Assembly (NCBI RefSeq): GCF_009026825.1
Contig: NZ_CP045032.1
Coordinates: 1,984,001 to 2,048,000, forward strand
Length of the DNA: 64,000 bases
Reading direction: 5' to 3'
Origin: Corynebacterium urogenitale
GTDB taxonomy: Bacteria; Actinomycetota; Actinomycetes; Mycobacteriales; Mycobacteriaceae
The notes beneath the pieces are model-generated. The model ran no database searches and was not told the origin of the DNA. It was given only the letters and a program-made list of their open reading frames with translations. Below, one piece after another: positions 36,943 to 49,293 of the stretch (position 1 is the first letter of the stretch; every line of letters starts with the position of its first letter). The position numbers and the translations under genes were made by a program.

Positions 36943-37977
36943 TCATTCCCCTTCGTCGTACCGACGCCGCTGCGGGCGGACAACGAAGAACAGTGAAACT
37001 GCAGACACCATAACACCCGCAGCGATTAATGCAAGACTCCACATGGTGGTGTTGGGCGATTCTGCAGCCTTAGCAGCTTGAGTCAACAGCTGGGCTTCTG
37101 CCTCCAGGGCTGTTTTACCCTCGAAATCCAACAACGTTTGCACTGGCCGGAGTTGCCCATCGGCACCGCGAACCTTGTACTCATCCGTCGTATGTTCCGT
37201 CACTCCGACAATCAGACCGCTGGCCGGCTCCACCGCGAGCTCGCGTGTGGCACTGTGATACAGCTGAGCCACACGAGGCTGCCTCTCCGCCACATCTACG
37301 TCCGCGCCTTCTGGCAGCGCAATCTCATTGCGAATGCCCTGATAGGAATCCGCAACATTTGTTGAATCGATGCGCTGCTCGTAGATATGCACCGTGACAT
37401 CCCGGCCAGCGGAATCTTTCCTCACTTCCTCCCGGCTGAACTCCGCCGGGAAAGAAGCGCGCAGGGTGTAATCGAAGTAGTCATACGCCTCCTGCTGAGC
37501 ATTTTGCGGGAACTTGGCCCATGCCCCCTGCATGGGCACTTCTACCGATGGCGTAGCTGGAGTATCCGCCACCTGTCCAGTCCCTCCCACAACCTCACCG
37601 CTAAAGCGATCGGCGCGGAAAGTGTACACCTGCGCCTCCAGCAGGGCATCCAAGTCATCATCAACGTCTTCACGACGAGTCGTCACGCCTACACGGCCAC
37701 TGACCTCAGTTTCGTCCGCCGGCGCCCCTTGCGTGAGGTGGAACTGGCGAACAACAGGTGCCTCTCTCTCCTGCGGCTCCCTCTCCCCCGGCTGGTAACC
37801 TTCACCCACCGTCGCTGCGGGATCCTCGAGGCTGATGGTTGTTGCTCCGAGGTCTAGTGGCGTCGGCTCATCGACGGGGAGAAAACGCGGCAGGATCGCT
37901 CCGGTGGCGAGCAGAAGGACGCCACCCAGCAGCGCGAAAAGAGCGAGGATTCGCTGGCGTGAAAGCATGAGCACCAT
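36943..37977 (-). CDS. DUF3068 envelope protein (porin PorA-family fold)
   Basis: A 344-residue protein with an N-terminal transmembrane helix (RILALFALLGGVLLLATGAIL), an external region of about 280 residues and a C-terminal transmembrane helix (LALIAAGVMVSAVSLFFV) with a short basic tail. The VRKDSAGRDVTVHIYEQRIDS and AELAVEPASGLIVGVTEH-type blocks match DUF3068, an actinobacterial membrane family of unknown function. The ATG at 37977 is used (37968 also possible); no good Shine-Dalgarno is seen. It separates rplJL from rpoBC. Confidence 0.82.
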   Translation of the reverse strand: MVLMLSRQRILALFALLGGVLLLATGAILPRFLPVDEPTPLDLGATTISLEDPAATVGEGYQPGEREPQEREAPVVRQFHLTQGAPADETEVSGRVGVTTRREDVDDDLDALLEAQVYTFRADRFSGEVVGGTGQVADTPATPSVEVPMQGAWAKFPQNAQQEAYDYFDYTLRASFPAEFSREEVRKDSAGRDVTVHIYEQRIDSTNVADSYQGIRNEIALPEGADVDVAERQPRVAQLYHSATRELAVEPASGLIVGVTEHTTDEYKVRGADGQLRPVQTLLDFEGKTALEAEAQLLTQAAKAAESPNTTMWSLALIAAGVMVSAVSLFFVVRPQRRRYDEGE

Positions 37978-38007
37978 GATACGAGCGCAATCCGCCGCCC
38001 GAAAGTA

Positions 38008-38050
38008 CAAAACACCCGCCCCACCTGCGCGCAGCAGGTGAAGCGGGTGT
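38008..38050 (-). terminator. Terminator of rplJL
   Basis: CACCCGC-ccc-ACCTG and CAGGT-gaa-GCGGGTG form a two-part stem followed on the minus strand by GTTTTGTACTTTC. It lies 22 nt beyond the rplL stop and would reduce read-through into the DUF3068 gene. Confidence 0.8.
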
Positions 38051-38071
38051 GAAGCGTGAAGGGGATTCCTC

Positions 38072-38458
38072 TTACTTGAGGGAAACCTTTGCGCCTGCCT
38101 CTTCCAGCTTGGTCTTTGCAGCCTCAGCGTCGTCCTTGGACACGCCCTCGAGCAGAGCCTTAGGAGCAGCCTCAACGAGCTCCTTAGCTTCCTTCAGGCC
38201 CAGGCCGGAAACGATCTCGCGGACAACCTTGATCACGCCGATCTTCTTAGCGCCAGCGTCCTCGAGAACGACGTCGAACTCGTCCTTCTCCTCAGCAGCA
38301 GCCTCGCCGCCGGCAGCGCCTGCAGCAGCAACAGCAGCAACTGGAGCAGCAGCGGTCACGTCGAAGGTGTCCTCGAAGAGCTTCACGAACTCAGAGAGCT
38401 CGATCAGGGTCATCTCCTTGAAAGCCTCGATCAGTTCGTCGTTGGTGAACTTAGCCAT
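38072..38458 (-). CDS. rplL: 50S ribosomal protein L7/L12
   Basis: A 128-residue stalk protein. The N-terminal dimerisation domain ([19 protein letters not shown]), an Ala/Gly-rich hinge (about 35-55) and the factor-binding C-terminal domain ([22 protein letters not shown]) are all present. It lies 126 nt after rplJ. Confidence 0.97.
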
Positions 38459-39483: not shown

Positions 39484-40425
39484 ATGAGCACCCACGCGCG
39501 AGCCACATCGTTCTTGCCCGCTTTCTTGAAATCCCTCCGCCACCCGGAGTGGCTTCCCGACGGTGTGAATAAGTGGGATGAACCACTGGACGGTCGTGTC
39601 CCCGTCGTCTTACTCCACGGCACTTGGCTGAATGTGTACAATTCCTTCTCCCTCCTCGCTCCAGCGCTGGAGGAGGCTGGGCATGCGGTCTTCGCGAAGA
39701 ATTACGGACGGGATTCCTCGCCGCTGACCGGCCGCGCATCCGGCGTGTTCGCGACGGCGGGTTTGCTGGACTCCCAAAAGGAGGTTGCGGCCTTCATCGA
39801 CGAGGTTTTGGAGCGCACGGGCGCGCGCCAGGTGGATCTCGTCGGACACTCGCAGGGCGTGGCTCAGGCACGCCTGTACCTCACGGACTCCGGCGGAGCT
39901 GACCCACAGAATCCGGAGAAGAACAAGGTCCGCCGCATTATTGGCATCGGCGGGTCGAATCACGGAACCACGCTCAGTGGCATCTCCTCGCTGGCCTCTG
40001 TCTTAGACAGATCCGGCCGGTCCGATGGCCTCACGCTCAAGCTTCTAGGCCAGGCAGCTATAGATCAGCGTGTGGGCAGTGAGGCCGTGCGCCACCTCAA
40101 TCGACAGGGCGATACGGTCCCCGGCGTGGACTACACCATGATTTGCAGCCGCTTCGACCAGATCGTCACTCCCTGGAGAACACAGAGGTTGGAGGCCGGT
40201 CCAGGGGCCACCGTACGGAATGTGCTGGTGCAGACCGGCAATATCAAGGACTTCTCCGACCACTTGGCCATCCTCTATTCACCACGTGTCGTGGACCTCG
40301 TGCTGGAGGCACTTCACGATGGTGATGAGGACTACCGCACCACCCACCCTGAGGTCTCCACCTGGGTGGTGCCGTGGTTCGGCGAGGCGCGTCGCCCGTC
40401 CCTTTCTTTTCTCCGACGCCACTAG
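39484..40425 (+). CDS. Alpha/beta-hydrolase of the triacylglycerol lipase class
   Basis: A 313-residue hydrolase. The oxyanion segment is VVLLHGTW (about residues 41-48) and the nucleophile Ser123 lies in VGHSQG. An SRFDQIVTP block (acid) and FSDHLAIL (His) complete a triad, as in LipA/LipC-type lipases. There is no signal peptide or helix, so it is cytosolic or exported by another route. It stands alone on the plus strand, and its stop shares the tetranucleotide CTAG with the stop of the convergent surface-protein gene. Substrate unknown; lipid ester hydrolysis is likely. Confidence 0.85.
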   Translation: MSTHARATSFLPAFLKSLRHPEWLPDGVNKWDEPLDGRVPVVLLHGTWLNVYNSFSLLAPALEEAGHAVFAKNYGRDSSPLTGRASGVFATAGLLDSQKEVAAFIDEVLERTGARQVDLVGHSQGVAQARLYLTDSGGADPQNPEKNKVRRIIGIGGSNHGTTLSGISSLASVLDRSGRSDGLTLKLLGQAAIDQRVGSEAVRHLNRQGDTVPGVDYTMICSRFDQIVTPWRTQRLEAGPGATVRNVLVQTGNIKDFSDHLAILYSPRVVDLVLEALHDGDEDYRTTHPEVSTWVVPWFGEARRPSLSFLRRH

Positions 40426-43067
40426 TCCTCGTCTACATCAGCGCGCTCCACGCGCTGAGCCAGCACCATTTCTTGCGCTGCGCGTAGATTGCGTGTTGCG
40501 AGCAGCACGAGCAGCATGCCGCCGAGCAGCGCCATGAGTCCCACGCCGAGGGTGAAGCCTCCCATCCAGCCACCTTGTTGAAGTTGATCGGCAAAGAGCT
40601 GGATTGCGCTTTTCTCCTGCTTTTTCGGTCCAGCGGCGTGGGATTCCAGCGAGTTTTCTGACGGCAGGGCGCGAATACCCAATCCTTCACCGGAGGCCTC
40701 CGACATTGCGCCGTCTTCAGCCGCAGCCTCCTCAGTCACGGCATCGTCACTGTCGGCGGAAGCAGTTGCACCGCTTGAGGACGTGTCCGTGCTGCCTGTC
40801 ACTGACGCGGTGGAGACGACCGGAGTACCCAGAGAACTAGATCTGCCACCGGTGCTGCCGCTGGCAGATCCGGTTCCGTGAGCAATCGATGTTGCCAGCG
40901 GGTGAGCGGCGCCTACTGTCTGCGCAGATGCTTTCTGCCCTGCACCCTGCGCATGCACGTTAGCCGTTACCTGCCCGTTGGAGGTAGTACCCGAGACGCT
41001 CTGACCTTCAGACTTCGCTCCTTGTGGTTTTGTCTTTACGGGAGCCACAGCGGTCGGTTTCGCATCCTGGCGGGGCCCCACAGCGAGGCTCTTTCCGAAC
41101 CATTTATTGGCGATCCCGTCGATGGTAGTCAGGCTGTTGTCGAGGGAGATGAGGTCCTTGTTGACTTGTTGGAGCACCCCATCGACGCCCTTGGCGAATT
41201 CGAGGATGGGGATGTCTCCATCGGCGAGCCAGTGGCCGGAGTTGCTGTTCGGCTCATCCCCTGGGCCTTCTTCCCCTGGGTTCTGCTCCCCTGGGTCTTC
41301 TTCCCCTGGGTCTTCTTCCCCTGGGTTCTGCTCCCCTGGGTCTTCTTCCCCTGGGTTACCGGGTGCTGGTTCAGATGGAGACTGGTCACCAGCGAGGTTA
41401 CCGACGGCAAAGAAGGTCTCGAGTGGCACACTGAACTGCTTGCCCTTTTCGTCCGTGCCACTGTATTCGAATACCACGCGGTAGACACCTGGCTTGGAGA
41501 ACAAGAACGCATGGTGATCGTGGCTGGACGCCGGGTACTTGACTGTCTTTGTGCGGTCCTTAGAGTTCAGCTCCACGGCCAGCCTACCCAGCTTGGAGTG
41601 GGCGGTGACCATGTCACCAGGGCCATCGAATTCGGCGATCTTAAGCTCAACATCACCCTTGGTTTTTGGATATGCAAAAGCTTCCGTGGAAAAGCCTAGC
41701 CACGGCGCCTCCAGATCGTCCTCTTGCGCAGCTGGCGTGACCCATGCGGTATCCCCGAAGTCAGCACCTGCAGCATTGAGGTCTTCCTTGATCTTCTCGT
41801 TCAAGTTTAGGTGAGCACCTTCGCTATCCACACGGAATCCGAACATGCCGCTCGCTCGTTCAGTGACTTTTTGCGGATCAGCGCCGTCCTTGAGGAACGC
41901 CACTTGCTTGCCTTGACGAGTCGCTAGCGCCAAATCCATGTGCCCATGGTCAATGATGTCCAGGTCAGAGGCACTCGGGTATTTCTCGCCGAACTGTTTC
42001 GCGATTGCCTCCGCCGCTCGCTTGTTGCGTTCGGCGGGTGTAAGTGGTGGATCATTCGGAACAGGGTTTGCGGGTGTGGGGCCGTCAGGTGCGGGTTCCG
42101 TCTCATCCGGGTTAGACGGAGATGGCTTGGACGGCTGGTCTTCCGAGGATTCGTCCTGGGCAGGCAGGCCAGCGGCGTCGCGCTGCTGCTCCGCAGTCTC
42201 GGTGATCTCCTGCAGGCCCTTCGTCGTGCCCTCCGGCAGTCCCACTTCCTCATCGGATCCGACCAGCCACGTCACTGTGCGCACTGGAGACTTCTCAATC
42301 TTGCCGGTATCCGTGTGCTTGGCGTGCGCTTGCACGTTCAGCTTGTAAATGCCTGGTTTCGTAAAGGTCCAGCCGAAGTGTCCGTGATAACCCACCGTGT
42401 AGCTGAACTTTCGGATGTTATCCCGGGTGGAGAGGACACGAGTGATCTTCGAGTTACCTACCGAAGCAAAGAAGGTCTCCATCTCTCCGGGACCTTCGAA
42501 GTCCACTAGCTCGAAGTGAACCTTTTTGTCTTCGAAGTTGCCCGGCACTTCGTATTCATGAGCGGGATCGAAAGCACCGATACCCGCCCACAGTGGGCGC
42601 CAATTATCGGTCCAGTCTGTGGACTGCGGGCCGGTCCACAAAATGGTGCCGGGCTTGCCCAGGAAGCTCAACGCCTTTTCATCCGGCACGACGAAGCGCG
42701 ATACTTCCCTGCCCTTCTTATCTGCATCTGGCGCGAGCCGCAGGCAGATATCATCGGCGGGACGTGGCACCTGGCCGTCCACAATCATCACATCCATTTC
42801 GCCCTGGTTGCGTGTGGCGTAAATGGCATCCACGTGAGCCTGGTAAAGCAGTGTCCGCCCAGCGCAGGTATGGGTGGAGTCGGTGCGTGTGTCCTTGATG
42901 TCGTCGCCGAGCTCTACGCTATTCCAACCGCGCTCGCCCGGTTTATGACCGCTTTCCGTTGGCGTCTGGTTTGCGTTGTCTTTGTCGTCTGCGGTGGCAA
43001 CAGGTGCGGAGCCCACAGCCAGCAGGCCTGCAGTCAGCACCGCAAGTAGTGCCTTTTTCCGTGTCAT
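40422..43067 (-). CDS. Anchored-repeat ABC transporter-associated surface protein, membrane-anchored
   Basis: 881 residues from ATG 43067, which follows AGGA and overlaps the permease stop. A signal peptide (about 1-27) is followed by two copies of the actinobacterial surface-anchored repeat (TIGR03769-like), each opening with an AHVD/GHMD motif and closing with HxH...F..PGxY (HGHFGWTFTKPGIY; HDHHAFLFSKPGVY). Then come a PGEEDPGEQN tandem repeat (given by position at 41258-41357), a Ser/Thr/Ala-rich stretch, one transmembrane helix near the C-terminus and a charged tail. No LPxTG is seen. Last gene of the operon; it fits the TIGR03773 'transporter-associated wall protein'. Function probably ligand capture outside the cell. 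Confidence 0.85.
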   Translation of the reverse strand: MTRKKALLAVLTAGLLAVGSAPVATADDKDNANQTPTESGHKPGERGWNSVELGDDIKDTRTDSTHTCAGRTLLYQAHVDAIYATRNQGEMDVMIVDGQVPRPADDICLRLAPDADKKGREVSRFVVPDEKALSFLGKPGTILWTGPQSTDWTDNWRPLWAGIGAFDPAHEYEVPGNFEDKKVHFELVDFEGPGEMETFFASVGNSKITRVLSTRDNIRKFSYTVGYHGHFGWTFTKPGIYKLNVQAHAKHTDTGKIEKSPVRTVTWLVGSDEEVGLPEGTTKGLQEITETAEQQRDAAGLPAQDESSEDQPSKPSPSNPDETEPAPDGPTPANPVPNDPPLTPAERNKRAAEAIAKQFGEKYPSASDLDIIDHGHMDLALATRQGKQVAFLKDGADPQKVTERASGMFGFRVDSEGAHLNLNEKIKEDLNAAGADFGDTAWVTPAAQEDDLEAPWLGFSTEAFAYPKTKGDVELKIAEFDGPGDMVTAHSKLGRLAVELNSKDRTKTVKYPASSHDHHAFLFSKPGVYRVVFEYSGTDEKGKQFSVPLETFFAVGNLAGDQSPSEPAPGNPGEEDPGEQNPGEEDPGEEDPGEQNPGEEGPGDEPNSNSGHWLADGDIPILEFAKGVDGVLQQVNKDLISLDNSLTTIDGIANKWFGKSLAVGPRQDAKPTAVAPVKTKPQGAKSEGQSVSGTTSNGQVTANVHAQGAGQKASAQTVGAAHPLATSIAHGTGSASGSTGGRSSSLGTPVVSTASVTGSTDTSSSGATASADSDDAVTEEAAAEDGAMSEASGEGLGIRALPSENSLESHAAGPKKQEKSAIQLFADQLQQGGWMGGFTLGVGLMALLGGMLLVLLATRNLRAAQEMVLAQRVERADVDED
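41258..41357 (-). repeat. 15-bp in-frame tandem repeat in the surface-protein gene
   Basis: About 6.6 copies of CCCCTGGGTCTTCTT (forward strand), with units starting at 41258, 41273, 41288, 41303, 41318, 41333 and 41348. Each unit encodes five residues (PGEED or PGEQN). Unit gain or loss would change the length of an extracellular spacer without a frameshift. Confidence 0.95.
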
Positions 43068-43975
43068 GATGCGATGTCCTTCTGTGTTGTTGCGGTTGCT
43101 GGTCGTTGTTCTTCCCTGGCTCTTCGACGCCACCCCGCGGCACTGCGGCCGCGGACCAGCGTGCTGAGGAAGGCGAGGAAGAAGAAAGTGGTGAGTACGA
43201 GCACGATCGTCGCACCCGCTGGTAGGTCAACAGCCCAGGAGAAGTAGACGCCCAGTACTGATCCCACAGCCCCGAGCGCAGCACTGGTGGCCATCATCAC
43301 CAGCAGCCTGTCTGTGAGCAGGCGGGCCGTCGCTGCCGGTGTGACCAAGAGAGCGAGCACCAGAATGTTGCCCACGGTGCGAACAGAGATCACCACGGCG
43401 GTGGTGACTGCCAGGTAGAGGACCAAGTCCATGAGCAGAACGTTGATGTTCAACGCCCGGGCGGATTCCCGGTCGAGGCTAACGGCGATGAGCTGCGGCT
43501 GGAGCAGGAGTATCACGGCGACAACCAGGGTTCCCACCACGGCCACGGAGATGATGTCACTGTTAGTCACACCCGTAATTGATCCGAAGAGAAAGCTGGT
43601 GAGGGAGCCCGTGTAGCCGTCGACCTTCGCGATGATCACTAGGCCAAGTGCGAAGGATGCGGCAAAGAAAATACCGATGACGCTGTCTTCGCGAATGCGC
43701 TGTCGCTGCGAAAACAGGGCGATGAGCACCGCCACGGAGATTCCCGCCACCGCCCCGCCGAGGAGGATGGAGGCATTGAGTGCAAAAGCGATCGCCAATC
43801 CGGGGAATACGGCATGGGCTACGGCATCGCCAATGAAGGCCATCCCACGGAGCACCACGTAAGTGCCGACCACACCACACACCGCTGCGCTGAGCACGGA
43901 AATGAGCAGCGCCTTCGGGAGGAAAGCGAGCGCGGGGTTACCGAGGTCAGCGATGAATTGATCAATCCCGATCAT
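43064..43975 (-). CDS. Anchored-repeat-type ABC transporter permease (metal type)
   Basis: A 303-residue ABC-3 family permease (ZnuB/MntB-like) with about eight helices; YVVLRGMAFIGDAVAHAVFPGLAIAF and TVGNILVLALLVTPAATARLL are diagnostic. It matches the 'anchored repeat' permease subgroup (TIGR03770). ATG 43975 overlaps the ATPase stop (ATGA), and its stop overlaps the surface-protein start. Substrate most likely Zn or Mn by family. Confidence 0.92.
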   Translation of the reverse strand: MIGIDQFIADLGNPALAFLPKALLISVLSAAVCGVVGTYVVLRGMAFIGDAVAHAVFPGLAIAFALNASILLGGAVAGISVAVLIALFSQRQRIREDSVIGIFFAASFALGLVIIAKVDGYTGSLTSFLFGSITGVTNSDIISVAVVGTLVVAVILLLQPQLIAVSLDRESARALNINVLLMDLVLYLAVTTAVVISVRTVGNILVLALLVTPAATARLLTDRLLVMMATSAALGAVGSVLGVYFSWAVDLPAGATIVLVLTTFFFLAFLSTLVRGRSAAGWRRRAREEQRPATATTQKDIAS

Positions 43976-44733
43976 GCTGCTCCCACCACCCCGACGGTGC
44001 GCAGTAGCGAGGAATTCTCCCGCACCCCGTAGGCGCGCATCCACGGCTCCGCTTGGCGAAGATCATCACGGGCTGAGTCCGCCTGCACACTGCCATTGAG
44101 CAACACCAAACGCTCGCAATGATCCACGGCCTCACCCAGATCGTGGGTGCTCATCAGGACCGTCGTACCTTCATCGGCCAGCTGCTTGAAAAGGCCAATG
44201 AGCTGTTCAGCGTTGGGCACATCCATCCCTGTGAACGGCTCATCCAGCAGCAGTACCTCTGGTTGTGCCGCAAGTGCGCGCGCAACCAATACTCGCTGGC
44301 GCTGTCCGCCCGAGAGCTGTCCGATGGGGCGGTCAGCCTTATCCTCGAGGTTTACTTTCTTCAGTGCCTGCAACGCGGCCTTATGGTCTTCCACGGCAGC
44401 TCGGCGCAAGAGCCCTCGGCGCACGACGCGGCCACCGAGGACGGCCTCGCGCACGGAGAGGGGAAACTCCCATGCGAACTCGTGCCGCTGTGGAACGTAG
44501 CCCACAGCCCGGCGCACTGCGGTGGCCCGGCTGCGGCCTCCGACACTGACGCTGCCACTATCCACAGGGATGAACCCCAAAATCGATCGGAGAAGCGTGG
44601 TTTTTCCTGCCCCGTTGGGCCCGAGGAGTCCCACGAATTCTCCGCGCTCTAGGTCCAGCGTGACGTCGGACAACACACGGCGACCGGACAGCTGCACAGA
44701 GAGGCGGCGCACGGACAGTACAGGGCTACTCAT
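43972..44733 (-). CDS. Anchored-repeat-type ABC transporter ATP-binding protein
   Basis: A 253-residue ABC ATPase with GPNGAGKTT (Walker A), LSGGQRQRV (signature), VLLLDEPF (Walker B) and STHDLGEA (switch His). The ATG at 44733 lies 8 nt inside the end of the upstream surface-repeat gene. It energises the adjacent ABC-3 permease. Confidence 0.93.
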   Translation of the reverse strand: MSSPVLSVRRLSVQLSGRRVLSDVTLDLERGEFVGLLGPNGAGKTTLLRSILGFIPVDSGSVSVGGRSRATAVRRAVGYVPQRHEFAWEFPLSVREAVLGGRVVRRGLLRRAAVEDHKAALQALKKVNLEDKADRPIGQLSGGQRQRVLVARALAAQPEVLLLDEPFTGMDVPNAEQLIGLFKQLADEGTTVLMSTHDLGEAVDHCERLVLLNGSVQADSARDDLRQAEPWMRAYGVRENSSLLRTVGVVGAA

Positions 44734-45706
44734 CGGCCGCCTCTTCCGCCTTCCGTCGCACGGAGCGGGAGTTACGCACGAGGGCAAAGGCGATAACGGC
44801 AAAGATCACGACCGCGCCGCCGAGCCCCAGCAGGATCCACTGCACAGAGCCTTCATCCCCACTGCTTTCCGCACTGGTCGTATCCTCTTGTGCTGCGCCC
44901 TGCGGAGATTCACCCACGCGCGGAAGCTCGCCCTCCCACCGGGAATTTCTCGCCTCCTCCGCTGGCACCCCGACGGCGAAGGTGAGGACCTTCGTGACCG
45001 TCTTCTCCGAGCCATCCTTTAGGGGCACGCTCACACCCACCGCGACTCGATGCACGCCTGGCTGAGTGAAGACCCAGTTAGCGTGGGCGTGCGTGTTCAT
45101 ATCCACCCACATGGATTGGACTTCGCTCTTTGCGGAATTCCACAAAACCTGTGGCTCGCTAAAGCCACCTGCCTGCAGAAACATGCTCAGCTGGCCTGGC
45201 CCCTGGTGACCCAGCAACTGCATGGTCACGCCGTTTGTGCCCTTGTCGATGAGAGCCGGAGACTGCGTGTTCCAACCCAGCCACGGCACGCCCTGGACCT
45301 CCGTCTGCGGCAGCACGTACACCTGCTGGCCCGCTGTGGCGCCCGTAAAGTCGTACGTTCCATCCTCCGGCAGTGTTTGCTGCGCATTGTTCGCAGCGAC
45401 GAACACCACGTCCTCTAGGTGCCGCCACACGGGTGATTCGGAGGAATCATCGCGCAGCATCAGGGACACGCCCTCGGGCGCGGGCTTATCCCCCTCATCC
45501 AAGCGCACGCCCAAATCCGCGTGCCCGCGGGTGAACTCGGCGTAGGTGCCGGGCGCGACGAAGCGCTCCTCGTCCGTCACGGTCTGCGCGAGGGCAGGAT
45601 CACTAGTCTGCGCCTGCGCCCCAGGAAGCACAACGCCGGAGATACTGAGGGTCGTGGCTGTGGCGACTGCGGCTAGAGCTTTGCGTAAGGTGACTCGACT
45701 GGTCAT
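44726..45706 (-). CDS. Membrane-anchored protein with one surface-anchored repeat (choice-of-anchor M)
   Basis: 326 residues: signal peptide (about 1-32, AQA cleavage), one full surface repeat (FTRGHADLGVRLDEG start, GVPWLGWNT middle, THAHANWVFTQPGVHRV end), an acidic Ser/Glu linker, one transmembrane helix (ILLGLGGAVVIFAVIAFALV) and a basic cytoplasmic tail. The repeat is the same module as in the other three surface proteins of this operon. Third gene of six, between the binding protein and the ATPase, so it is probably part of the import machine rather than a free adhesin. Confidence 0.87.
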   Translation of the reverse strand: MTSRVTLRKALAAVATATTLSISGVVLPGAQAQTSDPALAQTVTDEERFVAPGTYAEFTRGHADLGVRLDEGDKPAPEGVSLMLRDDSSESPVWRHLEDVVFVAANNAQQTLPEDGTYDFTGATAGQQVYVLPQTEVQGVPWLGWNTQSPALIDKGTNGVTMQLLGHQGPGQLSMFLQAGGFSEPQVLWNSAKSEVQSMWVDMNTHAHANWVFTQPGVHRVAVGVSVPLKDGSEKTVTKVLTFAVGVPAEEARNSRWEGELPRVGESPQGAAQEDTTSAESSGDEGSVQWILLGLGGAVVIFAVIAFALVRNSRSVRRKAEEAADE

Positions 45707-45761
45707 GGAAAAGTGCTCGTCCTTTGTGAAAGTGGTTCTTTGGGGGTTAATCGCCGCGAGC

Positions 45762-47345
45762 TCAACTGAGACAGCGGCGGAGTTCGGCGGCGTTGGCTAG
45801 CATGAGTTCCTCATAGCTGTGAACCTGTGCATCGAAGGTGTCGCCACGAATGGTGCAGACCTGCACATTCAAACGGTCCGCGATGGCCATGAGGCTATTG
45901 ACCTGCCCGGCTAGGGTGGGCTCAACGAAGACGGCGGGCACACGCAGGTTCTCCAGGGTGCGTGTGAGCGTGATGACATCGCGGGCACTGGGTTCCACCG
46001 CGGGATTGGGGGTGATGAACCCCGCGATGTCCAGCCCATAAGTATCTGCGAGGTAGGCGTACCCATCGTGGGCGGTGACGAGGTGTCGCCGGCCTTCGGG
46101 AATGGCCTGGATCTGTTCGCGAACAGAACGGTCCACGCTGTCGAGGCGGTCGAGGTACTCCTTGGCGTTGCGTTGGTAGGCGGCCGCGCCGTGCGGATCC
46201 ACTCGGCTTAGTTCGTCGCGAATGATCTCCACCATCGCTTTGGCATTGCCCACGGTATGCCACAGGTGTGGGTCGATATCGCCGTGGACGTGCTTGCCGA
46301 GGACGGCCTGCGGGAGCAGATAGGTTTCGTCCCCCGGCTGGCCGAGAAACCGAAAGTCTCTTTGAGCGGGTACCTGTTGCAGTGTGCGCGAGGGCACCTC
46401 GATGACCGTGGTTGCCGTCTCGCGATCTCCTCCGTCGCCGCTGAGGTCCATCTTTTTCTGACCGACGTCAACGCGCACGTCGTGGTGACCCTCTTTCACA
46501 ACCTGAACAGCTCCCTGCTGCGGGGCTTCATCGGCTGGCACTCCCACTGCAAAAGTGAGGGTGGTCTTCGCCAATGCGGTCGTGTCACGTTCTCCGCCGG
46601 TGATGAGATCCGTGGCTACGTCCACGGTGTAGATCCCGGGCTCCGCGAAAGACCAGCTCATGTGGGTATGCGCATTGGGTGGCAATTGGATGGAATCCGC
46701 ACCCAAGGGGTCGCCATCGAGCCCATCAGCGGAATCGAAGAAGATCTCCGGCTGTCCGAAGGTGCCGGTCACGTAGGCGGCAACCTGCCCCGGTCCGTCC
46801 ACATCAGTGACGTGGAAGGCGACCTGGCGCTGGGACGCAGCGGCTTCATCCTTGTGTTGTGGATCATCACCGGTTGCGCGCAGGCCCAGCCAGACGGAGT
46901 CCAAGGAGAGGTTTTCCACGAGAGGCCGCAGCTTCGCTCCCTTGGATTCCGCCCGCTCTGCCACGGGAATCACGGGCACGCCGGAACGCACGCTGCTGTG
47001 AACACTGTGACTTACAGCCTGTGGTTCCAGGAGGAAACCATTGGTGAAGGCCACGTCCGCATTCGCAGCATTGCGCACATCCCTCAAGGTCAGTTCATGC
47101 GTATGCGGATCCGCGTTGGGCGGTATCAGCCCGGTCACGCGTGCTCGCTCACCCGCGACATTGCGCACCAGGTCCGTGAGGATTGGCGTGGTTGCGACAA
47201 CATCCGTGATTCCATCGGTGGTGGATGGGAGGGCTGCTGTCGTCGCACAACTGGCAGTGGAAGCACTCAAGGTCGCCGCCGCCAGGACCCCCGCCACACG
47301 CCGATACGGGGCGCGCGGCAACAAAGAGGAGATCGGGGCAGCCAT
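45762..47345 (-). CDS. ZnuA-like metal-binding lipoprotein with inserted surface repeat
   Basis: 527 residues, about 200 longer than ZnuA-type proteins. A lipobox (TASC, Cys33) anchors it. The binding-protein lobe residues are DPHTHELTL (His), DPHLWHT (His), TAHDGYAYLADTYG (His) and a C-terminal Glu/Asp region, typical Zn/Mn ligands. Between about residues 150 and 275 an entire surface repeat is inserted (WLGLRATG ... AHTHMSWSFAEPGIYTV), roughly where ZnuA has its His-rich loop. It fits TIGR03772. The ATG shares one base with the stop of the upstream surface-protein gene. Confidence 0.9.
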   Translation of the reverse strand: MAAPISSLLPRAPYRRVAGVLAAATLSASTASCATTAALPSTTDGITDVVATTPILTDLVRNVAGERARVTGLIPPNADPHTHELTLRDVRNAANADVAFTNGFLLEPQAVSHSVHSSVRSGVPVIPVAERAESKGAKLRPLVENLSLDSVWLGLRATGDDPQHKDEAAASQRQVAFHVTDVDGPGQVAAYVTGTFGQPEIFFDSADGLDGDPLGADSIQLPPNAHTHMSWSFAEPGIYTVDVATDLITGGERDTTALAKTTLTFAVGVPADEAPQQGAVQVVKEGHHDVRVDVGQKKMDLSGDGGDRETATTVIEVPSRTLQQVPAQRDFRFLGQPGDETYLLPQAVLGKHVHGDIDPHLWHTVGNAKAMVEIIRDELSRVDPHGAAAYQRNAKEYLDRLDSVDRSVREQIQAIPEGRRHLVTAHDGYAYLADTYGLDIAGFITPNPAVEPSARDVITLTRTLENLRVPAVFVEPTLAGQVNSLMAIADRLNVQVCTIRGDTFDAQVHSYEELMLANAAELRRCLS

Positions 47346-49156
47346 TAGGCCTTGAAGGACTTCATGCTGCGGAGGTAGGTCAGCAGACCTCCGCCCAGCA
47401 CTGCAACGCCAAGGCCGGCAACAATGATCGCGAGAGTCATCGTGGAGGCGCCGGTGTTCGCCAGGGAACCATCAGCGCTCGCGCCACTGCCGTCGGCACC
47501 GTCAACGCCACCGGCACCGCCGGCACCACCAGCATCGCCAGCGCCACCGGAGCAGTTGCCGTCCTCAGTAATCTCTGCACCGAAGTCGAAGTGACCAGAG
47601 GTAGCGTTGCCGCCACTTCCGCCGACGGAGAACGTCAGGGTTGCGGGGGCGCTGACCTTCTTGCCTTCCTTCGTGGTAGCGGTTTGGGTGATGCCCACGC
47701 GGTACGTGCCTGGCTTGTCGAAGACCCAGTTGGGGTGCACGTGGCTATTACGTGGGACAACATGGGAGCCGGAGGCCTTGCCATTGGAACCGCTGAACCA
47801 TTCGGAGCCCACGACTTGGCCCAAATTGCCCTGCTCGTAGACGAACATGTTGCCCGGGCCTTCAAAGCTCGTCAGTGCGAAGGTGACATCGCCGGTGGTC
47901 TTTCCCAGGAGGTTCGGGTGCATGGTGTTCACGCCCAGCCACGGCACACCCGGCTGCTGAGTTGCGCCGATCAACCAAGCTTCGCCCTTGGCAATTGGAC
48001 CGAGCTTCTGCGGCAGTTGAGCCTTAGCCGCACCACCGAGGCCGAAATTCACGCTGGATGGGCTAACCCACTTCGGCGGAGACTGGCGGTCGTCCTTGAT
48101 CAGCGGCCGAAGTCCCGGCTCGCCCTTGGTGCACTGTGCTGCGTCCCCGCCAGCTGTGTTTCCACCACCGGTCGCTGCAGAATTGCCAGCCTTGGTCTGG
48201 GAGGTGGAGGAACTGCTAGAGCTTTTGGCAGAGCCAGACTTAGAGGATGAGGTGCCCTGGGAGGAGCTCTTTCCACCGCCGGTGGTTCCGCCAGTTGCGC
48301 CGCCGGTGTTTCCTGCCCCGGCGCCTTCGGATGCCCTACCGTTGTCGCCGCCATCTGCCTCGCTACCGTTTCCGGTGTGGGCTGGCGTGTTCGCTACTGC
48401 TACGTCAACTACTCCAGCCTCGTTCGGGTCTTTAGGTGAATGATCAACGACCCAGGTGTAGGTCTTTTCCTCACTGGAGACAGTTTGACCCTGCTTATTC
48501 TTCGCGGTGGCCTTCACGGTCATCGTGTACTGACCAGCCTTCTCGAACACCCAGTTGGCGTGAGTGTGGGCAGGGAATTTCTGCTCGCGAACATCACCGC
48601 TGGTGAGCTCGTAGGAGCCGTCCTTCAGCAAGGAACCCACTCCATTGAACCCATCGCCGAACAGGAAAACCCTGCCCGGCCCAGAAACGTCCGTGAATTC
48701 GATGTCCACATGCTCAAATCCGTCGGCCTGGACACCGAGTGTGTCCCAGCCAGGCCACAACAGACCCTTTTTCTGGGTTTGCGGAAGTAAATAACCGGCG
48801 ATGCCGACGTTCTCGACATCCTGAGTCTGGGTGGTGAACGCTTCCGCCTTCACGCCAAGAACGATATCTTCCGGGTCGTGTTGCACGTGGGAACCGGTGA
48901 TGTCCTCCTTAAGGTCAAGCACCAGCTTGCCGTTTTTCGCCGTCACGTTGAAAGCGTCTACGTGACCCTGATCGAAGCGCACGCTCTGGGCGCCTGCCTC
49001 GGAGGTCAATGGATTTTCAATAACGGACAACGTACCCGCTGTGGCATCCCACACTGGCAGGGCTGGCGCAGTGGCCAAACCAAGCGCAGTGACGGCGGAA
49101 AAAGCAGCCGTGATGCCCCGCTGCTTACTGGTGAAATGCTGGAATGTGCGTCCCAA
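47345..49156 (-). CDS. Cell-wall surface protein with two surface-anchored repeats and LAxTG sorting signal
   Basis: 603 residues: signal peptide (about 1-38), repeat 1 (FDQGHVDAFNVT start, HTHANWVF at 197-204), a long Gly/Ser/Thr-rich linker (about 270-345), repeat 2 (GVPWLGVNT, NSHVHPNWVFDKPGTYRV), a Gly/Ala-rich stretch and a C-terminal LANTGAST-hydrophobic helix-basic tail (SMKSFKA). LANTG is an LAxTG-type motif as used by class E sortases, so covalent wall anchoring is likely. It is the first gene of the anchored-repeat operon, behind a strong promoter with a Fur/Zur-like box. Confidence 0.87.
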   Translation of the reverse strand: MGRTFQHFTSKQRGITAAFSAVTALGLATAPALPVWDATAGTLSVIENPLTSEAGAQSVRFDQGHVDAFNVTAKNGKLVLDLKEDITGSHVQHDPEDIVLGVKAEAFTTQTQDVENVGIAGYLLPQTQKKGLLWPGWDTLGVQADGFEHVDIEFTDVSGPGRVFLFGDGFNGVGSLLKDGSYELTSGDVREQKFPAHTHANWVFEKAGQYTMTVKATAKNKQGQTVSSEEKTYTWVVDHSPKDPNEAGVVDVAVANTPAHTGNGSEADGGDNGRASEGAGAGNTGGATGGTTGGGKSSSQGTSSSKSGSAKSSSSSSTSQTKAGNSAATGGGNTAGGDAAQCTKGEPGLRPLIKDDRQSPPKWVSPSSVNFGLGGAAKAQLPQKLGPIAKGEAWLIGATQQPGVPWLGVNTMHPNLLGKTTGDVTFALTSFEGPGNMFVYEQGNLGQVVGSEWFSGSNGKASGSHVVPRNSHVHPNWVFDKPGTYRVGITQTATTKEGKKVSAPATLTFSVGGSGGNATSGHFDFGAEITEDGNCSGGAGDAGGAGGAGGVDGADGSGASADGSLANTGASTMTLAIIVAGLGVAVLGGGLLTYLRSMKSFKA

Positions 49157-49215
49157 GATGTTTTCCTTGCGCTCAAGGCTTCGGAGGGCACGTCAGCACA
49201 CCCACCTCTACCTAG

Positions 49216-49230
49216 AAATGATTGTCATTT
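49216..49230 (-). promoter_or_regulatory. Fur/Zur-like operator of the anchored-repeat operon
   Basis: AAATGATTGTCATTT is a perfect 6-3-6 palindrome of the TGAtnnTCA type bound by Fur-family regulators. It lies within about 20 nt downstream of the -10 and 60 nt before the ATG. With the ZnuA-like binding protein in the operon, a zinc repressor (Zur) is the best guess. Confidence 0.55.
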
Positions 49231-49234
49231 ATCA

Positions 49235-49263
49235 TTTATAGACCTACTGAACATCGTTGTCAC
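49235..49263 (-). promoter_or_regulatory. Sigma-A-type promoter of the anchored-repeat operon
   Basis: On the minus strand GTGACA (49263-49258), a 17-nt spacer and TATAAA (49240-49235) form a near-consensus promoter 79 nt before the first gene. The Fur/Zur-like palindrome covers the expected start of transcription. Confidence 0.65.
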
Positions 49264-49293
49264 ATAGGGGTTAGCTCCCACCCCCGAACACAC

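Follow-up and report, generated by a model that had tools for sequence, protein, structure and literature searches.

We propose that six adjacent genes of Corynebacterium urogenitale form a zinc-starvation import operon, in which anchored extracellular modules capture zinc and pass it to a ZnuA-type receptor by way of the receptor's own permuted copy of the module (we put the probability at about 0.72). All six genes lie on the minus strand at 40422-49156 of the window, by which we mean the whole 64,000-nucleotide stretch of DNA analysed. The list of open reading frames with translations thereby bears out the six-gene operon that the initial annotation had placed at 40422..49156:

47345..49156, minus strand: gene 1, secreted surface protein with two modules and a sortase-type tail (LANTG); TIGR03773
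47450..47464, minus strand: LANTG sortase-type motif of gene 1, present in the sequence
45762..47345, minus strand: gene 2, ZnuA-like lipoprotein receptor with an embedded module; TIGR03772
44726..45706, minus strand: gene 3, ZnuE-like, one canonical module followed by a C-terminal transmembrane segment
43972..44802, minus strand: gene 4, ABC ATPase, ZnuC-like; TIGR03771
43064..44044, minus strand: gene 5, ABC-3 permease, ZnuB-like; TIGR03770
40422..43133, minus strand: gene 6, secreted, two canonical modules, a long linker and a transmembrane tail; ZnuF-like

Some of the reading frames may have been listed with starts too far upstream; for gene 6, ATG at 43067 is more likely to be the start than GTG at 43133, judging from the sequence. 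No sortase motif was found in the gene 6 protein, and the genome contains two sortase-family matches. The operon is flanked by rplK-rplA and rplJ-rplL (the ribosomal names are our reading of the translations). A lipase/alpha-beta hydrolase gene on the plus strand (39484-40425) converges with the operon and overlaps the end of gene 6 by 4 bases. Beyond rplJ-rplL lies a gene for a PorA-type (PF11271) protein (36943-38175, minus strand). In Corynebacterium diphtheriae the last gene of the znu cluster, dip0445, is PorA-like/DUF3068, so the neighbourhood may be rearranged.

The family assignments agree with this gene content. Gene 2 scores 671.5 bits against TIGR03772 (curated cut-off 350.45) and gene 1 scores 412.1 bits against TIGR03773 (curated cut-off 190.3), a profile that reaches only 147 bits on gene 3 and 156.8 on gene 6 and exceeds its cut-off in gene 1 alone. 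TIGR03771 exceeds its cut-off for gene 4, TIGR03770 for gene 5, and NF038134 for genes 1, 2, 3 and 6. A ZnuA-like receptor, a module-bearing membrane protein, an ATPase and a permease are thus united in one operon, which is the layout of the C. diphtheriae-type Znu system with HxD/HxH modules. Among the BLASTP matches listed, the closest named relative of gene 1 is from C. urogenitale (86%). Within the genus, TIGR03770 is above cut-off in 93 of 201 genomes, this one included. Among 396 genomes sampled across the phylum, TIGR03772 has matches in 254 and exceeds its cut-off in 3, again including this one; most of the other matches listed are confined to roughly the final third of the profile, which is the receptor part.

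The initial annotation knew of no described mechanism for these families, which did not hold: the system has been published for C. diphtheriae (PMC6711530, 2019; PMC12445094, 2025). From the parts of PMC12445094 used here, the HxD and HxH motifs of ZnuE, ZnuF and ZnuG bracket about 150 residues, and zinc is bound by ZnuE, ZnuF and probably ZnuG. ZnuE is needed in zinc-limited medium, where the mutant ZnuE(3xA) fails to complement, and deletion of znuA has a modest effect only. By analogy with this published relative, zinc capture and a need for the ZnuE-like protein are supported for the present operon.

TIGR03769 has six matches in the whole 2.35 Mb genome, each above cut-off and all within genes of the operon, confirming the copy numbers first proposed (a pair each in gene 1 and the last gene, a single copy each in the receptor and gene 3):

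48437..48973, minus strand: gene 1 module 1, canonical; HxD at residue 65, HxH at 197; first half-profile 62-132, second 121-240
47552..48133, minus strand: gene 1 module 2, permuted; first strand (GHFD, 521-524) C-terminal, with Cys342 and Cys535 flanking the cut
46305..46904, minus strand: ZnuA module, permuted; second half 148-269 (HxH at 226), then first half 285-347 (HxD at 287)
44966..45532, minus strand: gene 3 module; HxD at 62, HxH at 206 (TIGR03769 and half-profiles)
42249..42845, minus strand: gene 6 module 1; HxD at 100, HxH at 250 (TIGR03769 and half-profiles)
41397..41951, minus strand: gene 6 module 2; HxD at 398, HxH at 538 (TIGR03769 and half-profiles)

The six HxH strings were found as originally written (HTHANWVF, HVHPNWVF, HTHMSWSF, HAHANWVF, HDHHAFLF and HGHFGWTF), and HxD and HxH are both present in all six copies. 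The initial annotation had thus recognised the modules, and its statement that each copy opens with HxD is correct for four of them; it overlooked the permuted order of the ZnuA copy and of gene 1 copy 2, in which HxD comes after HxH because the module is circularly permuted. The half-profiles that separate the two parts were trained on 310 canonical modules, all from other genomes. For comparison, the strands predicted by AlphaFold2 for the canonical gene 1 copy 1 run 64-74, 77-84 ... 121-124, 133-141 ... 197-204 ... 231-237.

In ZnuA the two halves are swapped: the second-half profile matches residues 148-269 (E = 7.6e-22) and the first-half profile residues 285-347 (E = 1e-9), with HxH (H226, H228) ahead of HxD (H287, D289). 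In the AlphaFold2 model (mean pLDDT 90.7), the strands follow the same swapped order (151-158 ... 225-233 ... 255-267, then 286-293 ... 340-344). All four motif residues are invariant in 121 of 121 sequences (the query and the 120 listed of 1508 matches), as are His81, His360 and His426, which align with H63, H317 and H383, the zinc-site histidines named for C. diphtheriae ZnuA in the part of PMC12445094 used. A downstream HxD occurs in 78 of 78 ZnuA copies of the best 80 of 549 loci (72 downstream only, 6 on both sides), and by profile count both motifs are present in all 70 ZnuA-type permuted pairs of these loci and the window. A C. diphtheriae receptor (P0094) has the same swapped order, with HxH at 191 followed by GHxD at 238. 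The reverse motif order, 45 residues apart, had already been remarked for C. diphtheriae ZnuA (PMC12445094); circular permutation is not named in the parts of that paper covered, and none of the other papers listed takes up the point in its title or the opening of its abstract.

The gene 2 protein has a metal-receptor fold. Compared with three PDB receptor chains, it has an insertion of about 205 residues that separates the first receptor stretch, which runs to 107-108, from the DPHLW stretch that contains His360; the permuted module adjoins DPHLW on its N-terminal side. At the insertion site, a second ZnuA-family receptor encoded in this genome (locus L104, 1495-2508) carries a long His-rich loop. 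In AztC, a D-loop (residues 117-133) is essential for zinc receipt from AztD, and His138 is a zinc ligand, as described in the part of PMC7463823 used. By alignment, His138 would correspond to the histidine of DPHxW, which would put the module copy of ZnuA at the D-loop position. A third ZnuA-family receptor is found at G000:C1:1701205-1701987 (L102), near a gene that reads like a DtxR/MntR-type regulator. With two further receptors of the family in the genome, the operon may not be the main zinc route.

Gene 1 copy 2 is permuted at a different point. Its HxH (H472, H474) precedes its HxD (H522, D524), the first-half profile matches 348-404 without the first strand, and the second half covers 391-513. 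The moved first-strand piece is not significant on its own (half-profile E = 44); we accept it on the basis of its conservation (GHFD in 67 of 68 aligned relatives), of a strand predicted at 521-530 that contains GHFD (AlphaFold2; mean pLDDT of the model 77.5) and of a cysteine pair. Cys342 and Cys535 are both present in 54 of the 68 relatives, one of them in 1 and neither in 13. Of 22 such copies, 20 have a cysteine after the moved strand, whereas none of 310 canonical modules has one after the first strand (both counts from the best 80 of 549 loci). In most relatives the cysteine pair would probably staple the permuted copy.

The pairing of the two motifs was followed in a locus sample comprising the best 80 of 549 relatives (24 genus names in titles, with some near-duplicates). 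Of its 451 HxH copies, 335 are preceded by HxD/E at a distance of 90-190 residues, 94 have HxD on the downstream side only and 22 have neither; chance rates for the upstream and downstream counts are 16% and 7.5%. The HxD-HxH spacing is not due to chance, since HxD/E lies 130-149 residues upstream in 309 of the 451 copies as against 3.6% at random positions. When modules of these loci and the window were counted by profile, both motifs were present in 343 of 398 canonical modules and absent from 29; 2 had HxD alone and 24 HxH alone, and 22 of the last group carry GHxD 47-52 residues past HxH. Outside this table stand 45 pieces that remained unpaired, of which 27 have HxH and 18 lack it, and 9 oddly placed modules, 7 of them with HxD alone and 2 with both motifs. 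The pairing rule is broken by 2 canonical and 7 oddly placed modules with HxD but no HxH, and by 27 HxH pieces without a pairable first half. Second-half pieces number 517 or 522, depending on the output form of one profile search; A1 took in 92 and A2 67 of 120 listed homologues. We did not use a Fisher P-value for the pairing table, as it is inflated by related sequences. At the sequence level, HxD and HxH are retained or lost jointly in most pairable modules. Many of the copies without both motifs belong to loci of Micromonospora, Salinispora and Actinoplanes, so the counts overstate the number of independent losses. In loci of these genera one module copy lacks HxH and HxD (with, for example, R and G in place of two histidines), and this copy is perhaps docking-only.

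Two sites in the gap between rplA and gene 1 are candidates for regulation by zinc:

49210..49230: Zur-like box 1, which holds AAATGACAATCATTT on the minus strand; second-best match to the Zur matrix in the window
49245..49265: Zur-like box 2, best match to the same C. glutamicum Zur matrix in the window

The matrix was built from five C. glutamicum Zur sites given in the part of PMC2823685 used. Both of its best matches (49245 and 49210) fall in this gap, as happens with 2 of 300 column-permuted matrices; with 67 of the 300, at least one of the two best window sites does. The exact 15-mer AAATGACAATCATTT occurs once in the genome. A plain 15-mer scan allowing up to 3 mismatches gives two matches, which are one place on both strands (0.49 expected; 5 of 100 shuffles reach two), a weak signal on its own. 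Across the best 80 of 549 loci, 65 have their best matrix match close to a module-gene 5' end, above all of 60 permuted-matrix controls (mean 25, maximum 60 of 80), a signal smaller than under an earlier control. Four of the loci (L059, L060, L073 and L074, titled Schaalia, Xylanimonas, Actinomyces and Sanguibacter) have an identical match range and Zur-like site, and some of their titles may be mislabelled. The genome has one Fur-family match, a protein with HHHH and CxxC, which we take to be features of Zur/Fur proteins. Zinc represses the C. diphtheriae znu cluster via Zur (PMC6711530, in the part used), and we infer Zur control of the operon in this organism as well.

Gene order and fusions link the gene 3 protein to the receptor. 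The gene immediately after the receptor encodes a module in 75 of the best 80 of 549 loci, with the ATPase as one of the two genes listed next; in the most frequent layouts this module gene encodes one module with a transmembrane tail, and all 80 loci have at least one further module reading frame. Further, 22 of 120 listed ZnuA homologues (812-861 residues, among P0041-P0080) are fused in frame to a canonical module with a hydrophobic or transmembrane tail as ZnuA-ZnuE proteins (P0050 was checked). All species-named fusions are from C. urealyticum and may represent a single event. An N-terminal fusion of ZnuA with gene-1-like modules was seen once, in a Micromonospora sequence marked partial (P0076).

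We envisage the following course. When zinc is short, Zur would leave the operon, and beta-sandwich modules would bind zinc at the wall (gene 1), at the membrane (gene 3) and on the gene 6 protein, which is probably wall- or membrane-held. The zinc site would consist of HxD of the first strand and HxH near the end of the module, the two motifs together forming one site. Zinc would pass from the anchored modules, chiefly that of gene 3 (ZnuE), to the permuted module of ZnuA, which would replace the His-rich loop beside the ligand His360. From there it would reach the ZnuA site, formed by His81, His360, His426 and probably a carboxylate, and go through the ABC-3 permease. Hand-over between modules, the direction of flow and the role of the ZnuA copy are suggested by position, fusion, the shared operon and the AztD/AztC parallel. 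The initial annotation had zinc as the likely substrate, for which the Zur-like boxes, the ZnuA-type receptor fold and the published regulation, binding and phenotype in C. diphtheriae now provide support; its passage of metal from the surface to the importer is unproven. More tentatively, and with rather less confidence than even odds, the relay may be homotypic: the receptor would have captured a permuted module of the type carried by its surface and membrane partners in place of the His-rich loop, zinc would move from like site to like site, and gene 1 would hold a second permutation with another cut point.

Three other readings have to be weighed against this import scheme. The wall proteins of genes 1 and 6 could be surface buffers or stores of zinc that do not feed the importer, only the gene 3 protein serving uptake. 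We consider this unlikely, yet it has the strongest claim of the three. C. diphtheriae mutants without znuF or without znuG grow no more slowly, ZnuF and ZnuG give no help to growth in low zinc, plasmid copies of them reduce the growth of a strain without the transporter, and this growth-lowering effect of ZnuG depends on its histidines (PMC12445094, in the part used). However, genes 1 and 6 share the operon with the importer, most of the best 80 of 549 loci have Zur-like boxes close to module genes, and a znuF-445 deletion lengthens the lag phase in C. diphtheriae (same part of PMC12445094).

The HxD and HxH motifs might also be mainly structural or serve docking, with zinc bound elsewhere or weakly, which we regard as improbable. 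It bears on the earlier proposal that the conserved histidines are metal ligands, which stands in part: they matter in published growth tests, where His-to-Ala (3xA) ZnuE and ZnuG lose their effect, but the same study could not demonstrate zinc binding by them in vitro (PMC12445094, in the part used). There, ZnuE(3xA) still shifts with zinc and both 3xA proteins are less stable, so HxD/HxH as ligands are not proven. Against a structural role, neither half varies in the ZnuA sample, and two different permutations retain both; the 29 canonical modules without either motif are still recognised by the profiles, so the fold can do without the motifs. Still less probable, to the point of being a slight chance, is that the true ligand of the modules is some other metal or metal complex, zinc being incidental. 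ABC-3/ZnuA families also transport Mn and Fe, and the closest folds of the gene 2 receptor in a fold search include MntC, YfeA and PsaA. The Zur-like boxes speak against this, as do the Zur regulation by zinc, the zinc binding and the zinc-limited phenotype in C. diphtheriae (PMC6711530 and PMC12445094, in the parts used).

On the import scheme, the "anchored repeat" locus, which is widespread in actinobacteria, would count among zinc uptake systems, and it offers a concrete way to test how zinc is passed from the cell envelope to a receptor. The survival of both motif halves in two permutations provides an argument, independent of mutants, for joint action of HxD and HxH, a point left open by PMC12445094.

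Several known systems resemble the operon. In NCBIfam, it corresponds to the "anchored repeat" families TIGR03769-03773 and to NF038134 (choice-of-anchor M), each of the six genes exceeding at least one cut-off; compared by name alone, these families mention neither a substrate nor permuted copies. With AztABCD it shares a ZnuA-type receptor and an extracytoplasmic zinc-binding partner, the D-loop of AztC ahead of His138 taking the zinc (PMC7463823, in the part used). It differs in that AztD is a beta-propeller, whereas here the module is a predicted beta-sandwich and the receptor has a permuted copy. Equivalog scores stay below the cut-offs for AztC, AztA and AztB (190.9 vs 350, 180 vs 220 and 199.6 vs 280) and for enterobacterial ZnuA, ZnuC and ZnuB (79.5 vs 268, 132.1 vs 306 and 92.3 vs 284). 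The streptococcal polyhistidine triad proteins with AdcAII are alike in that surface zinc-binding repeats are proposed to feed a receptor (PMC12445094, in the part used); their motif, HxxHxH, is different, and the likeness is one of proposed role. Closest is C. diphtheriae znuAECB with znuFG, which has the same order of receptor, one-module membrane protein, ATPase and permease, the same HxD/HxH modules, and a two-module protein without a sortase motif. Unlike that cluster, the operon begins with the two-module, sortase-tailed gene 1, and a one-module, ZnuG-like wall protein is absent from the six genes. We conclude that the operon is a further case of the C. diphtheriae-type Znu system, to which the permuted modules are an added detail.
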